A stretch of DNA of 64,000 nucleotides from an uncultured Williamsia sp. (GTDB lineage: Bacteria > Actinomycetota > Actinomycetes > Mycobacteriales > Mycobacteriaceae): contig NZ_CANLWM010000001.1 of NCBI RefSeq assembly GCF_947494875.1, forward strand, positions 248,001 through 312,000. Reading direction: 5' to 3'. Within the stretch, counting starts at the first letter, position 1; every line of letters begins with the position of its first letter. Below the pieces are notes generated by a model. The model saw only the letters and a program-made list of their open reading frames with translations. It did no database searches and was not told the DNA's origin. The position numbers and the translations under genes are program-made. This document shows, piece after piece, positions 53,999-61,090 of the stretch.

Positions 53999-55045
53999 TC
54001 AGGTGTCGAACGTGACGGTGATCTCCTCCGAGCGCGGGACCGCCTGACACGCCAGCGTCAGCCCCAGGGCGATGTCCGAGTCGACGAGGGTGTCGTTCTT
54101 GCGCATCGTGACGTCGCCGCTGACCACGCGGCAGGCGCACGAGCTGCACTCACCCTCGCGGCACGAGAACGGGGCGTCGTGTCCGGCGGCAAGCAACACG
54201 TCGAGCAGGGTCGCCGACCGCGGCCACGCCAGGTCCACGGTGTCGCCGCGCAGGGTCACCGACACCTGAGCGTCGTCGTCGTTGTTGACGACGGTGACGT
54301 CAACGTCGGCGAAGGGGTCACCGGACAGCGAGCGGTACCGCTCTGTGTGGACGCGGTCCGCGGGGACACCGACGGCCTCGGCGGCCTTCTCGACGACCGC
54401 CATGAAGGGCCCCGGACCGCACACCCAGATGCGATGCCGGGGATGTGCGGCGAGCTCATCGACCAGGGCGTCCGGGGACGGGAGGCCCCGCTCCGACTCG
54501 TGCCAGTGCTCGACCGTGAACCGGTCGCCGAATTCGGCACGCAGCTCGGCGATCTCGTCGACGAAGATCACCGAGTCCGGGTCGCGGTTCGCGTAGAACA
54601 ACCGAACGTCGCGGACCCCGCCCATCAATGCCGACGTGGCGATCGACATCAGTGGGGTGATCCCGCTGCCCGCCCCGACGAGCAGGAAGTCCTCGTCGAA
54701 CGTGCGGGGGAAGAACGACCCCGACGGTGTGAGCACGGTCAGTCGGTCGCCGACCCGCACCTCGTCGCACAACCACGACGAGGCCCGACCTCCGGGCACC
54801 CGCTTGACGGTGAGGATCAGATCGTCGTCGAGGTGGGGTGAGCTCGACATCGAATAGCACCGCGCCACAGTTGATCCCGCGTCACCCCCGGGGACGCGCA
54901 CGGTGAGGAACTGGCCGGGGTGATAGCGGAAGCGATGGGCCACGGACTCGGGGACGTCCAGCACGAGCGACACCGAGTCGGCGGTCTCGCGGACGATCTC
55001 GACGATCTCGAGGTCGTGGGCGCGTCCGCGCGGTCCGTCGCTCAC
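53999..55045 (-). CDS. FAD/NAD(P)-[2Fe-2S] reductase, KshB/Rv3230c type
   Basis: The 348-residue protein has an FAD domain (ARCYSMSSSP), an NAD(P) domain (LLVGAGSGITPLMSI; WVCGPGPFM) and a C-terminal plant-type ferredoxin with CREGECSSC and a distal Cys (LACQAVP). It passes electrons from NAD(P)H to a terminal oxygenase. The intact AurF-like diiron protein in the same operon is the obvious partner. It overlaps the SDR gene by four bases. Confidence 0.93.
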   Translation of the reverse strand: MSDGPRGRAHDLEIVEIVRETADSVSLVLDVPESVAHRFRYHPGQFLTVRVPGGDAGSTVARCYSMSSSPHLDDDLILTVKRVPGGRASSWLCDEVRVGDRLTVLTPSGSFFPRTFDEDFLLVGAGSGITPLMSIATSALMGGVRDVRLFYANRDPDSVIFVDEIAELRAEFGDRFTVEHWHESERGLPSPDALVDELAAHPRHRIWVCGPGPFMAVVEKAAEAVGVPADRVHTERYRSLSGDPFADVDVTVVNNDDDAQVSVTLRGDTVDLAWPRSATLLDVLLAAGHDAPFSCREGECSSCACRVVSGDVTMRKNDTLVDSDIALGLTLACQAVPRSEEITVTFDT

Positions 55046-55875
55046 GAACCGATGCGCTGGCCGGCGGCCAACGGGCGAGCCATGACGTCCTGGTATCGAC
55101 CGCCGAGCAGCCGCGGCAGGCTGTCGAACAGTCGGGCGTCGGGTCCGATCAGCACCCGCGGCTTGTTCTTCTCGATGCCGCGGATGATCCGTTTGGCCGC
55201 GGTCTCCGGGCGGGTGAACGCGATCCGCTGGAAGTTCTCGTCCTTCACCTGCAGGTCCTGGGCGTATTCACCGCTCTGCCGTCCGTTGCGGACGATGTTG
55301 GTCTTGATCCCCCCGGGGTGCACGCACGTCACGCCGACAGGGTGCCCGCCGCTGATCATCTCCTGTCGCAGCGAGCCGGTGAACCCGCGGACCGCGAACT
55401 TGGCCGCGTTGTAGGCACTCTGGCCCGGGATCGACATGAGACCGAACACCGACGACACGTTGACGACGTGTCCGTCGCCCGACGCGATCAGGTCCGGCAG
55501 GAACGCCTTCGTGCCGTTCACGACACCACCGAAGTCGATGCCGACGATCCAGTCGAAGTCGTCCCACTGCATGTCGGCCACCGTCGCCGACAACGAGACG
55601 CCGGCGTTGTTGACGACGACGTTCACACCGCCGAAGTGGCCTCGCACCTCGTCGGCGTAATCGAGGAACCCCGACCGGTCGGCGACGTCGAGCCGATGCG
55701 GCACCGCCTCGACGCCGAGCTTCTCGGCCATCCGGACGGTCTCGGTGACCGCGTCGATGTCGATGTCGCTCAGCGCGAGTCTCGCGCCCCGGTCGGCCAG
55801 CCGCAGCGCGAGAGCACGGCCGATCCCGGACCCCGCGCCGGTGACGACGACGACCTTGTCGCGAAAGTCCTTCAC
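55042..55875 (-). CDS. Short-chain dehydrogenase/reductase
   Basis: The 277-residue enzyme has the classical SDR motifs: GAGSGIGRAL cofactor loop, NNAGV, the catalytic Ser (NVSSVFG) and YNAAK. An Asp at the end of the second strand (LSDIDID) suggests NAD(H). It probably oxidises an alcohol made by the diiron oxygenase or reduces its product. Overlaps of four bases on both sides. Confidence 0.92.
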   Translation of the reverse strand: MKDFRDKVVVVTGAGSGIGRALALRLADRGARLALSDIDIDAVTETVRMAEKLGVEAVPHRLDVADRSGFLDYADEVRGHFGGVNVVVNNAGVSLSATVADMQWDDFDWIVGIDFGGVVNGTKAFLPDLIASGDGHVVNVSSVFGLMSIPGQSAYNAAKFAVRGFTGSLRQEMISGGHPVGVTCVHPGGIKTNIVRNGRQSGEYAQDLQVKDENFQRIAFTRPETAAKRIIRGIEKNKPRVLIGPDARLFDSLPRLLGGRYQDVMARPLAAGQRIGS

Positions 55876-56870
55876 TGGCCACGCTCCTCGTCACGGATCG
55901 CCTGCAGGACGTCGTCCGGCAGGGCCCGCGACGCGCGGTACAGCGCTGTGGTCACACGGCCTTTGATCAGGCCGGCCTCGTGGAAGTACCGCAGCATCGG
56001 ACCGCACATGAAGGACGCGTTCTCGCGGTAGCGCGGCGACCGCTGCGCGGCCCACCATCCGCGCAGCTGGCCGATGCCGACGGACTTGTACGCCTGTGAG
56101 TCGACGAGCGTGGGCATCACGAACAGCGTCAGCGCCGCGCACAGCAGGCGGTTGATCGCGAGTGAGACAGGCCCCGACCGGTCGATCGCGTCGGCGAGTT
56201 CGTTGCGCGCGAACGTGATGTGCCGGGCCTCCTCCAGCACGTGGATCTTCATGAGCTGGCGGACGTGGGGCTGGATGGTCTCGTCGGCCATCGACTCGCG
56301 CTGCACACGGTCGAGGACCTCCTCCACCAGCAGCGTGCCCGCGTAGACCACGGGGCCGTGCGGGATGAACCCGATGAGCCGCAACGGCATCGACAGCGCC
56401 TTGGGGCGGCGGTAGGGCTCCATCCCGGTCTTGTTGATCAGCCGACCGAACATCGTGGAGTGCCGGGTCTCCTCGGCGATCTCGCTGAGCGAGTACAGCG
56501 TGCTCGCGTCGGCGAAGTCCTTGCCGTGGAAGATGCCGCGCAGCAGGTTCGTGCACAGGCCGATCTCGGCGTTGATGCCGTAGGTGAGGATCGCGACGGC
56601 CTCCGCGCGACTCAGGCGCAGCTTCTGGTCGTCGGTCAGCGCCGCGTAAATCTCGGTGCCGAACAGTGTCCCGCGCATTTCCGTCGCCCACGGCTTGTCG
56701 GGTGCGATCGGTGCGTCCCAGTCGATGTCGAGGTCGCCGTCGTAGGCGCGGTCCGCGGTGGACCGCAGCAGACGCTCGGCGAGCGCCACCCGTTCGGCCT
56801 CCACGTCACGGGTCGTCTCGACGGTCGTGTCCCGGGTCAGGGTCTCGGGCGCGATGCTCTCGATGGTCAC
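55872..56870 (-). CDS. AurF-like diiron oxygenase, intact
   Basis: The 332-residue protein has the AurF-type (PF11583) ligand set: E102 (NAEIG), E134 and H137 (EETRH), E183/E184 (LVEEVLD), and H210, E214 and H217 (IHVLEEARH). Spacing matches AurF (E-x2-H and H-x3-E-x2-H). AurF itself is an N-oxygenase of p-aminobenzoate; relatives in mycolate bacteria are largely uncharacterised and may hydroxylate lipids. It shares ATGA overlaps with the pseudoenzyme gene upstream and the SDR downstream. Confidence 0.87.
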   Translation of the reverse strand: MTIESIAPETLTRDTTVETTRDVEAERVALAERLLRSTADRAYDGDLDIDWDAPIAPDKPWATEMRGTLFGTEIYAALTDDQKLRLSRAEAVAILTYGINAEIGLCTNLLRGIFHGKDFADASTLYSLSEIAEETRHSTMFGRLINKTGMEPYRRPKALSMPLRLIGFIPHGPVVYAGTLLVEEVLDRVQRESMADETIQPHVRQLMKIHVLEEARHITFARNELADAIDRSGPVSLAINRLLCAALTLFVMPTLVDSQAYKSVGIGQLRGWWAAQRSPRYRENASFMCGPMLRYFHEAGLIKGRVTTALYRASRALPDDVLQAIRDEERGQ

Positions 56871-57874
56871 TGTTCCCCCTCAGCTGGAGTGTCGAGTCGT
56901 GCCCCGGTGCGCCGGACCAGCATCCGGCTCACCGGGTCGGTGAACATCCCCGCGGCGCGTGCGGCCTCGAGGAACTCGCCGTACAGGATGTGGGCCCGTC
57001 GGGCGCGCATCGGTGCGCGTCGGCGGGCGAGTCGGGTGCGCCACCGGGGAACACCTACGACCTCGGCGGCGTCGGACCGGTCGAGCGCGCGGGTCACGGC
57101 GCGCATCACGACAGCGGAGGCGACGGAGTACCACGCCAGCAGGAAGCGACTGCGGCCGGGAACCGACGACGCGAAGTCGAGGTGCGCGAACTCGCGCAAC
57201 CGTCGCGTGGCCCGGAGGTGGACGTCGGCGACCTGACGGGCGTGGGGCTGGACCCCCGGGTCCTCGGCCAGCGCGGACGCCAGGCCGTGCACGAACGACT
57301 CGGCGAGGAGATAGAGCGCCGCCGTGGTGCCGCCGGCGGGCGTGAGCAACGTGTACCGCTCGAAGCGACGAGCCAGCGTGGCGTGGCCGTTCGGCGGGAG
57401 ACCGGTGACGGTGACGAGCCGACCCAGCATCGCGGTGCTGGTGGTCCGGATGTTGATGGTGGCGAACCCCCACCGGGCGGTGTCGTCGCACAGCGTCTGG
57501 TCCTCGCCGATGCGCCGGAACTCCAGCATCGACTGCGCCGTGGTCGCGAACGCGGCGAGGGTGAGGAGGTCGACGAGCTCGTGCTGTCCGAGGTCCAGGC
57601 GCGCCGCAGGCGACAGCCGTCGCCACGGGCGGGTGCCCGCTGTCCCGACGAGGCTGTCGGGCAGCCATGCCGCGTCCGGCCACGGCGGTGCCGACCAGTC
57701 GATGTCGATGTCCGGGTCGAACCGGTCCTCGACGGTGTCGATAAGGAACCGCTGCGCAGCAGCGTCCCGCTCGGCGACCGATCTGCGTCGGGTCGGACGA
57801 CGCGGCGCGCGCATCGACTCGGCCCCGACCATGGTGTTGGCCGTGGCGTCCCCCGGCTCTGCGAGCCCTGACAT
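56867..57874 (-). CDS. AurF-like paralogue lacking the diiron ligands (pseudoenzyme)
   Basis: The 335-residue protein aligns to the adjacent AurF-like enzyme with a constant offset of nine residues through the core (QPHARQ against QPHVRQ; MLGRL against MFGRL). The metal ligands are replaced: E102 by T111, E134 by R143, H137 by S146, E214 by T223 and H217 by L226; only H219 and E192 remain. It cannot hold a normal diiron site but should keep the fold, suggesting a regulatory or heterodimer subunit. First gene of the four-gene operon; GGGAGGG precedes the ATG. Confidence 0.8.
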   Translation of the reverse strand: MSGLAEPGDATANTMVGAESMRAPRRPTRRRSVAERDAAAQRFLIDTVEDRFDPDIDIDWSAPPWPDAAWLPDSLVGTAGTRPWRRLSPAARLDLGQHELVDLLTLAAFATTAQSMLEFRRIGEDQTLCDDTARWGFATINIRTTSTAMLGRLVTVTGLPPNGHATLARRFERYTLLTPAGGTTAALYLLAESFVHGLASALAEDPGVQPHARQVADVHLRATRRLREFAHLDFASSVPGRSRFLLAWYSVASAVVMRAVTRALDRSDAAEVVGVPRWRTRLARRRAPMRARRAHILYGEFLEAARAAGMFTDPVSRMLVRRTGARLDTPAEGEQ

Positions 57875-58037
57875 CTACCACCCTCCCGGCCGCATTTCTT
57901 GTGGCGAGGTCACGAAGTCAACCAAACGACCGATGCCGCCGTTCACCGTCTGATGGACTTTGGTGTCGCGTCACAACGATCCCGGGGCAGGGTGATCGGA
58001 CGACGGCGCCGGGGAGCCACATGGGGGAGGAACACGC

Positions 58038-58391
58038 ATGGACACGTTTCTGGACATCCGCGACACGGGCCGCGCGACGCCGCGGTCACCGCACGACGAC
58101 TCCGACTACATCGGCAACGCGTCGATCATCGTCAAGGGCATCGAGGTCCCGGTGAACCTGGAACTCAAGGGCTATCGCGAGCCGATCGACGGCGTGTACC
58201 GCTGGATCGGACGGGTCGCCGCCAACGACCGGCTGTCGGCGATCGTGGGAGAGGTCAAGAGGATTCGCGTCATCGTCTCCACGCCGCACAGCGCGCGCGA
58301 GGCCTACCTCGGCGATCCCGACTTCTGGGGACGGTTCCGGATCAACGGCAAGTCGACCCCGCCCTTCGCGGTCGAGACCGCCGTCGACTGA
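58038..58391 (+). CDS. DUF4873 protein
   Basis: The 117-residue protein matches DUF4873 with YIGNASIIVKGIEVPVNLEL and YRWIGRV, a small beta-rich module. The same module is found fused to flavin monooxygenases in mycolate bacteria. It is divergent from the AurF operon. GGGGAGGAA lies before the ATG. The function is unknown. Confidence 0.82.
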   Translation: MDTFLDIRDTGRATPRSPHDDSDYIGNASIIVKGIEVPVNLELKGYREPIDGVYRWIGRVAANDRLSAIVGEVKRIRVIVSTPHSAREAYLGDPDFWGRFRINGKSTPPFAVETAVD

Positions 58392-60169: not shown

Positions 60170-61090
60170 TCAGATCTGCGCGCGGAGCTCGGGCGGCAGT
60201 GTGCGCGAGAGCTTGTACAGGCGCGTGGTGAGGCGTCCGCGGATCAGCCCGACGTCGTGGAAGTACGTCAACATCGGACCGCAGGCGAACGTCGCGTTCT
60301 CGCGGTAGCGGCGCGAGAACTGGGCCACGATCCATCCCCACGTCGGTGAGATGCCCACCGACTGGTACGCGCGGGGGTCGATGAGTGTCGGCATGACGGC
60401 GACCACGATCACCGCCACCAGGACACGGTTCACCGCGAGGGACAGTGATCCGCACCGTGCGACGGCGCGCGCCAACTCGGTACGGGCGTAGGTGATGTGC
60501 CGCGCCTCCTCCAGGATGTGGATGCGCATCATCTGGCGGACGTGGGGCTGCACGTTCTCGTCCGCGCACGCCTCCCGCTGCACCCGGTCGAGGATCTCCT
60601 CCACGATGAGGGTGATCGCGTAGATCAGGGGTCCGTGTGGCACGAAACCCATCAGCCGCAGCAGCATGTTGACGGGGCCGGCCGCGGACCAGGCGGGCAT
60701 CTCGGCCTTGTTGATCAGACGGCCGAACATCGTGGAGTGCCGCGCCTCCTCGCCGACCTCGCTCATCGAGTAGAGCATCTCCGGTGCCGTCCAGTCCGGC
60801 ACCGCGTACATCGTCCGGAGGAGGTTCATGCACAACTGCTGCTCGGCGACGATGCCGTAGCTCAGCACGGCCACCGCCTCGGCACGACCCAGCGTCAGCT
60901 GCTCCTCACGGGACAGCCGCTCCCACAGCCGGGTTCCGTAGAGCGTGCCGCGCCGCTCGGTCAGCCACGCCTTGTCCGGGTCGACCGGGGCGTCCCAGTC
61001 GATGTCGATGTCGCCGTCGAGCAGGGTGTCCGCGGTGGACCGCAGCAGCCGCTCCGCCGTGGCCGTGACGTCGATGGTCATCGTGTCCAT
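60170..61090 (-). CDS. AurF-like diiron oxygenase, second intact copy
   Basis: The 306-residue protein is close to the enzyme at 55872-56870 (shared STMFGRLINK, QPHVRQ and RYRENA) and keeps the ligands: E83 (VAEQQ), E115 and H118 (EEARH), LIVEEILD and IHILEEARH. It stands alone, opposite the PhoD-like gene, and would have to borrow a reductase, probably the one at 53999-55045. GAGAGGGG precedes the ATG. A dyad lies just upstream. Confidence 0.87.
   Translation of the reverse strand: MDTMTIDVTATAERLLRSTADTLLDGDIDIDWDAPVDPDKAWLTERRGTLYGTRLWERLSREEQLTLGRAEAVAVLSYGIVAEQQLCMNLLRTMYAVPDWTAPEMLYSMSEVGEEARHSTMFGRLINKAEMPAWSAAGPVNMLLRLMGFVPHGPLIYAITLIVEEILDRVQREACADENVQPHVRQMMRIHILEEARHITYARTELARAVARCGSLSLAVNRVLVAVIVVAVMPTLIDPRAYQSVGISPTWGWIVAQFSRRYRENATFACGPMLTYFHDVGLIRGRLTTRLYKLSRTLPPELRAQI

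Follow-up and report, generated by a model that had tools for sequence, protein, structure and literature searches.

Why would a bacterium keep, directly beside the gene for an intact AurF-type diiron oxygenase, a second AurF gene from which most of the metal ligands have gone? The question is raised by an operon in a 64,000-nucleotide stretch of DNA from an uncultured Williamsia sp. (contig NZ_CANLWM010000001.1, positions 248,001 to 312,000; this whole stretch is hereafter the window, and its own numbering is used below). Reading the minus strand from 57874 to 53999, we found four genes where the initial annotation had placed them, in the order degenerate AurF (AurFa; 56867-57874, 335 aa), intact AurF (AurFb; 55872-56870, 332 aa), short-chain dehydrogenase/reductase (SDR; 55042-55875, 277 aa; PF00106, E 2.4e-48) and PaaE-like ferredoxin reductase (53999-55045, 348 aa), the last with FAD, NAD and 2Fe-2S domains (PF00970, PF00175, PF00111). 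Our answer, to which we assign a probability of roughly 0.6, is that the operon codes for a diiron monooxygenase of several components, in which AurFb would be the catalytic protein and AurFa a pseudoenzyme subunit replacing the second protomer of an AurF-type dimer.

AurFa matched the AurF profile PF11583 at 73.0 bits (E 3e-20; residues 35-303) and AurFb at 227.5 bits (E 2.3e-67), both above the curated cut-off of 29.6, which places the degenerate copy in the AurF family as first supposed; at E ≤ 0.001 AurF was the sole Pfam family matched by the two proteins, and NCBIfam gave no match. Alignment of the two sequences gave a constant offset of nine residues at all invariant columns listed, from A40/A31 to G309/G300, again in line with the initial annotation. 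We took the diiron ligands of AurF to be E101, E136, H139, E196, H223, E227 and H230. The corresponding AurFb positions, E102, E134, H137, E183, H210, E214 and H217, are invariant across 12 intact family members (the window's AurFb among them), and on this invariance and their spacing they are presumed to be the ligands, so that AurFb carries all seven (EEHEHEH). AurFa reads T111, R143, S146, E192, H219, T223 and L226 at these positions, with five of the seven replaced by Thr, Arg, Ser, Thr and Leu exactly as had been reported. The choice of E183 over its equally invariant neighbour E184 was made on spacing alone; were E184 the ligand, six positions would be changed in AurFa, which has Ser there. 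The window's genome holds six PF11583 genes (AurFa, AurFb, a copy at 60170-61090 and three elsewhere), five of them with intact ligands and AurFa as the exception.

We surveyed 401 Mycobacteriaceae genomes with AurFa and with a profile made from 11 degenerate copies, fetched and read the stretches around matches of the degenerate-copy profile, and tabulated the ligand positions of 122 AurF rows, some from outside the family (110 distinct sequences; one gene stands twice, as L051 and L213). There were 92 intact and 30 degenerate rows. All 30 degenerate copies lay beside or near an intact copy, 28 of them as neighbours on the same strand, and His139 and Glu227 (AurF numbering) were gone in every one; all remaining AurF copies for which we read the ligands were intact. 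At least one pair was present in 27 of the 401 genomes, 17 with a first kind and 11 with a second (G327 has both). Like the Williamsia AurFa, the orthologues found lack ligands and are linked to an intact copy, in 19 pairs of the first kind, to which a second clade adds 11. The pairs occur in several genera rather than one species, and the AurF pair is older and wider than first noted. Ligand loss by chance or misalignment was rejected on the constant offset, the 92 intact against 30 degenerate rows, and the placement of the 19 first-clade copies on one side of a branch. These counts are lower bounds because the second-clade copies fell below the match list of the profile search and were met as neighbours of intact copies; the genome searches scored few candidates per genome, so that divergent degenerate copies elsewhere were possibly missed. 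Inner stops were present in seven of the 122 extracted rows (six intact and one degenerate, L099 of G090) and were treated as gaps in the trees; the degenerate G090 gene itself is open (352-353 residues), its tblastn match overshooting the gene start.

The Williamsia AurFa belongs to the first clade, which comprises 19 copies from 17 of the 401 genomes and six genera (g1, g6, g9, g16, g19 and g22). This clade is monophyletic (support 100/100), and its sister is a clade of the intact partners (22 rows including three Williamsia third copies; support 99/97). With the ligand columns removed from the tree, the first clade was still recovered at 100/100 (18 rows; the long-branched G327 copy was dropped). 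Within Williamsia, AurFa was found in four of eight genomes (identities 100, 85, 74 and 56%), where five or six ligands are lost and the order AurFa-AurFb-SDR-reductase is kept together with the flanking genes. Separate trees of AurFa and AurFb (19 sequences each) had 15 of 16 splits in common, and the correlation between AurFa and AurFb distances (mirror r 0.867) was matched by none of 5000 permutations. One duplication followed by joint inheritance would explain the congruence of the two trees.

The degree of ligand loss varies across this clade, with three ligands gone in seven copies, four in four, five in five, six in two and all seven in one, as might be expected if AurFa were a decaying pseudogene carried along by linkage. 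Against such decay stand the open frames of at least 280 residues in the 30 copies, the retention in six genera with a congruent phylogeny and the substitution pattern. Nei-Gojobori dN/dS ratios among the four Williamsia species were 0.15-0.53 for AurFa (6 pairs), 0.16-0.33 for AurFb (6 pairs) and 0.15-0.31 for the third copy (3 pairs), values that are rough for the wider pairs because synonymous sites are strongly diverged (pS about 0.5); for the closest Williamsia pair they were 0.15 for AurFa and 0.16 for AurFb. AurFa thus appears to be under purifying selection, and we give the pseudogene explanation almost no chance. That a disabled copy keeps its sequence suggests that it still serves the intact one as a partner.

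The description of AurFa as metal-less fits the Williamsia proteins but overstates the case for the clade, as only three ligands are lost in 7 of the 19 first-clade copies. E196 is kept in 11 of these 19, H223 in 15 and H230 in 13 (AurF numbering), leaving an E/H/H set in several lineages that could form a diminished metal site, mononuclear for instance, with a catalysis of its own. However, none of the 30 copies retains H139 or E227, the Williamsia AurFa proteins keep E192 and H219 at most (with Tyr in place of H219 in W. serinedens), the first-clade copy of G327 keeps no ligand, and an Arg is found at one of the ligand positions in 8 of 19 first-clade and 11 of 11 second-clade copies. The first-clade copies share no one set of ligands; we rejected a residual mononuclear site on this ground and consider independent catalysis by AurFa improbable.

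The second clade consists of 11 pairs from 11 genomes, all of genus g6, in which the order is reversed: an intact AurF comes first, then the degenerate copy, then the SDR (11/11), with a gene resembling Baeyer-Villiger monooxygenases (BVMO-like) in between in 9 of the 11. The ligand positions of its degenerate copies read S/T/I, G/S, T/S/A, E, H/Y/F, S/C and R, so that E196 is kept in 11 of 11, H223 in 9 of 11 and H230 in none, and Arg stands at a ligand position throughout. Facing the retained E196, such an Arg could swap the metal charge for a salt bridge. In the tree the second clade is separate from the first and sits on a long stem (1.07). A single origin of all degenerate copies was rejected moderately by the approximately unbiased (AU) test (p = 0.0133), which took in 25 of the 30 copies (18 of 19 from the first clade and 7 of 11 from the second). 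Two origins are therefore likely, though not certain given the long stem of the second clade.

The gene content around the pairs bears on how such an enzyme might work. The reductase accompanies all 19 first-clade pairs (its match is split in G281, L095 9608-10617), the SDR is in line at 14 (split in G399, L098 4516-5341) and nearby on the opposite strand at two more, a BVMO-like gene is in line at nine, and a DUF4873 gene recurs; the four-gene operon of the initial annotation is incomplete. The split reductase and SDR matches perhaps reflect frameshifts in the gene or the assembly. Against the PaaE model TIGR02160 the Williamsia reductase scored 236.6 bits, below the cut-off of 420.8. An intact AurF of G032 (C4; L021, L214 5269-6153) forms a natural single-frame fusion of about 770 aa with a PaaE-like reductase, in support of electron donation by the reductase. 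Many relatives carry the BVMO-like flavin monooxygenase gene between AurF and SDR. The type I BVMO fingerprint, which we take to be FxGxxxHxxxW[P/D], is present in 30 of the relatives' 33 matches above 300 bits in two sets of stretches (two of the 33 lie outside operons), and the other three keep FxGxxxHxxxW. The gene is absent from the Williamsia AurFa operon, and six homologues are located elsewhere in the window's genome (E ≤ 1e-20).

On the reading we favour, NAD(P)H electrons would pass through the FAD and 2Fe-2S groups of the reductase to AurFb, whose diiron centre would activate O2 and oxygenate the substrate. AurFa, as the metal-free second protomer, may stabilise AurFb or shape the substrate entrance, the asymmetry of the dimer, or the docking of the reductase and the DUF4873 protein. 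The SDR would oxidise the product of AurFb, and in many relatives the BVMO-like enzyme would then insert oxygen. Catabolism through C-H hydroxylation typically leads from alcohol to ketone to ester, and the presence of an oxygenase, a dehydrogenase and a BVMO in one operon may point to a catabolic route of this kind, with hydroxylation followed by formation of a ketone and insertion of oxygen. Alpha/beta hydrolases and a ChsH2-like gene lie near some pairs, and at L092 (10837-12909) a ChsH2-like OB-fold gene, followed by a gene without a Pfam match, adjoins the pair. These L092 neighbours may hint at catabolism of CoA thioesters or of a steroid-like type, and the ChsH2-like gene and hydrolases would loosely be in line with a substrate from among the lipids, steroids or terpenoids.

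How far does this evidence reach towards a physical complex? The initial annotation had taken overlaps between the four genes as a sign of one. Three four-base overlaps are indeed present on the minus strand, between AurFa stop and AurFb start (56867-56870), AurFb stop and SDR start (55872-55875) and SDR stop and reductase start (55042-55045), but their letters are GTGA rather than ATGA. They vary even within Williamsia, the first being absent in W. deligens; G004 keeps only one of the three. They are hence no proof of a complex, and a fixed complex is putative. A different view is that AurFa has a separate role in the same pathway, as a substrate carrier, ligand sensor or regulator that does not bind AurFb. 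In its favour, the physical pairing is itself presumed, AurFa evolves faster than AurFb, and two pairs are on opposite strands or widely spaced. It fits less well with the 28 of 30 pairs that are neighbours on one strand, with the second clade being paired likewise, and with AurF being dimeric, which gives AurFa a ready dimer partner. We regard a separate role as rather unlikely.

The subunit reading itself has several points to contend with. The AurFa tree is about twice as long as that of AurFb (12.61 vs 6.45), and the congruence of the two trees speaks for long retention and not for contact, since tight linkage alone gives the same pattern. The pair of G327 (g6; L101 7279-9224) is the only one on opposite strands, and its AurFa is very divergent, with the longest end branch and all seven ligands lost; in G280 the two genes are 2.9 kb apart with a P450 in between. 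For the 11 second-clade pairs, the surrounding stretches that we read yielded no reductase. The predicted models (eight sequences) were of moderate confidence, with pLDDT 73.1 for AurFa and 76.9 for AurFb, and they superposed on AurF 2jcd_B with TM scores of 0.44 and 0.55 and rmsd of 19.6 and 7.4. Finally, N-oxygenation, as known for AurF, competes with C-H hydroxylation as the reaction. The same AurF structure was the top solved match of both models (E 2.2e-3 and 1.2e-3, none ≤ 0.001); by themselves the models would agree, loosely, with an AurF fold. By sequence, neither phmmer nor the A2 and A4 profiles retrieved AurF from the PDB, so that kinship to the solved AurF is distant.

Upstream of AurFa and divergent from it lies the DUF4873 gene (58038-58391, plus strand, 117 aa), which matched PF16170 at 102.8 bits (E 1.2e-29; curated cut-off 25); the intergenic stretch 57875-58037 presumably holds the promoters, judging from the gene positions. 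In three sets of stretches with AurF genes, DUF4873 genes were found in 33 of 38, 15 of 19 and 28 of 30 cases, mostly close and divergent, and in some stretches one to several kilobases away. The window's genome has two, the second about 6 kb from another AurF. In many genomes the uncharacterised DUF4873 family is in this way tied to oxygenases of the AurF type.

The third AurF of the window (60170-61090, minus strand; PF11583, E 1.1e-64) is intact and lies outside the operon; from its tree position it is read as a duplicate of AurFb that arose on the Williamsia stem. It is present in three of the four Williamsia species with the pair, and in W. serinedens (L037) no third-AurF match was found between the PhoD and ALDH genes. 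Neighbouring AurF copies that are both intact were seen at L159 6391-8537 (G067) and L168 7320-10165 (G974), and are possibly early stages or different pairs. At L118 and L126 (two genomes, family f33) an AurF gene stands beside an oppositely oriented gene for another diiron protein; these two odd-ligand rows were rejected as AurF, being read by eye as a different, six-ligand diiron family. The 31 further AurF copies outside the 122 rows, drawn from 45 rows at 43 loci (43 AurF rows, 12 of which repeat genes among the 122), were all intact. In an order-level sample of 397 genomes, which took in members of the family, matches at E ≤ 1e-28 came from three genomes, each of them a family member. 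In a class-level sample of 394 genomes, G086 and the window's genome were the only two in which the degenerate-clade profile scored below 1e-100, these class-level matches being judged by score with ligands read for 18 of the loci. A search of plasmid records gave no match.

Many diiron oxygenases work with one active and one inactive subunit instead of forming a homodimer; the AurF pair bears on the reason for this, and if our reading is right it would extend such pairing to the AurF family. With two series of pairs that have lost three to seven ligands, and single-copy operons of the same type beside them, the evolution of a pseudo-subunit can be tested step by step within one family. No such AurF pair was described in the literature found, in keeping with the initial annotation, which knew of none; subscription papers lay mostly outside the search, and this is no proof of novelty. 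The finding is best read as a known principle, the active/inactive oxygenase pair, in a family for which no earlier report was found.

Known AurF/CmlI members are homodimers with both protomers metallated. With these p-aminobenzoate-type N-oxygenases (PF11583; 2jcd, 5hyh) the Williamsia proteins have in common the family profile, the best model match and, in AurFb, the seven-ligand pattern; unlike them, one of the two linked copies here lacks ligands. A further comparison is with the single-AurF operons of Mycobacteriaceae, in which a DUF4873 gene lies by an AurF-BVMO-like-SDR-reductase series: they have the same components and order but one intact AurF only, and are apparently the older form. 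In the lipothrenin gene cluster of Streptomyces, litN, for an AurF-like diiron oxygenase, is followed by litO (DUF4873), and deletion of litN abolished and that of litO reduced the N-hydroxylated products; this is a biosynthetic cluster with one diiron N-oxygenase in the available part of its gene table (PMC10616846). DnfA is likewise an AurF-family protein (PMC11160463).

A precedent for loss of metal from one of two copies is yeast ribonucleotide reductase, a duplicated diiron protein in which one copy lost its iron ligands and evolves faster, the Rnr2/Rnr4 heterodimer is the predominant form, and Rnr4 is needed for Rnr2 activation and stabilises its diiron centre (PMC2704937). The AurF pair differs in family and chemistry, its proteins matching Pfam's AurF profile and not that of R2 at E ≤ 0.001. 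From this precedent AurFa could also be an assembly factor that loads or protects the diiron centre of AurFb and stays outside the working enzyme, a role hard to tell from that of a subunit. In single-copy operons the intact AurF stands without a neighbour of this kind, and we see no more than a slim chance for this role.

A similar architecture may be that of the phenylacetyl-CoA epoxidase PaaABCE, in which a catalytic diiron subunit PaaA works with a structural subunit of the same fold, PaaC, and is fed by the FAD/2Fe-2S reductase PaaE (PMC4498308). The match is in gene content and ligand pattern (an intact and a ligand-less gene of one family, and a PaaE-like reductase); the union of the products in one complex is putative. 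The differences are that Pfam assigns the pair to AurF and not to PaaA/PaaC, that the reductase scores far below the PaaE cut-off, and that the only extra small gene seen encodes the DUF4873 protein, no dedicated PaaB search having been made. As a tentative and wider proposal, which we hold to be possible rather than probable, AurF proteins may have evolved twice in one bacterial family into heterodimers that are obligate and asymmetric, one of the two protomers having lost its diiron centre (with Arg in its place in part of the copies), and DUF4873 may serve as the third component, with a coupling function. This would be a PaaABCE-like machine that arose independently from another diiron family, with AurFb as PaaA, AurFa as PaaC, the DUF4873 protein as PaaB-like and the reductase as PaaE-like partner.

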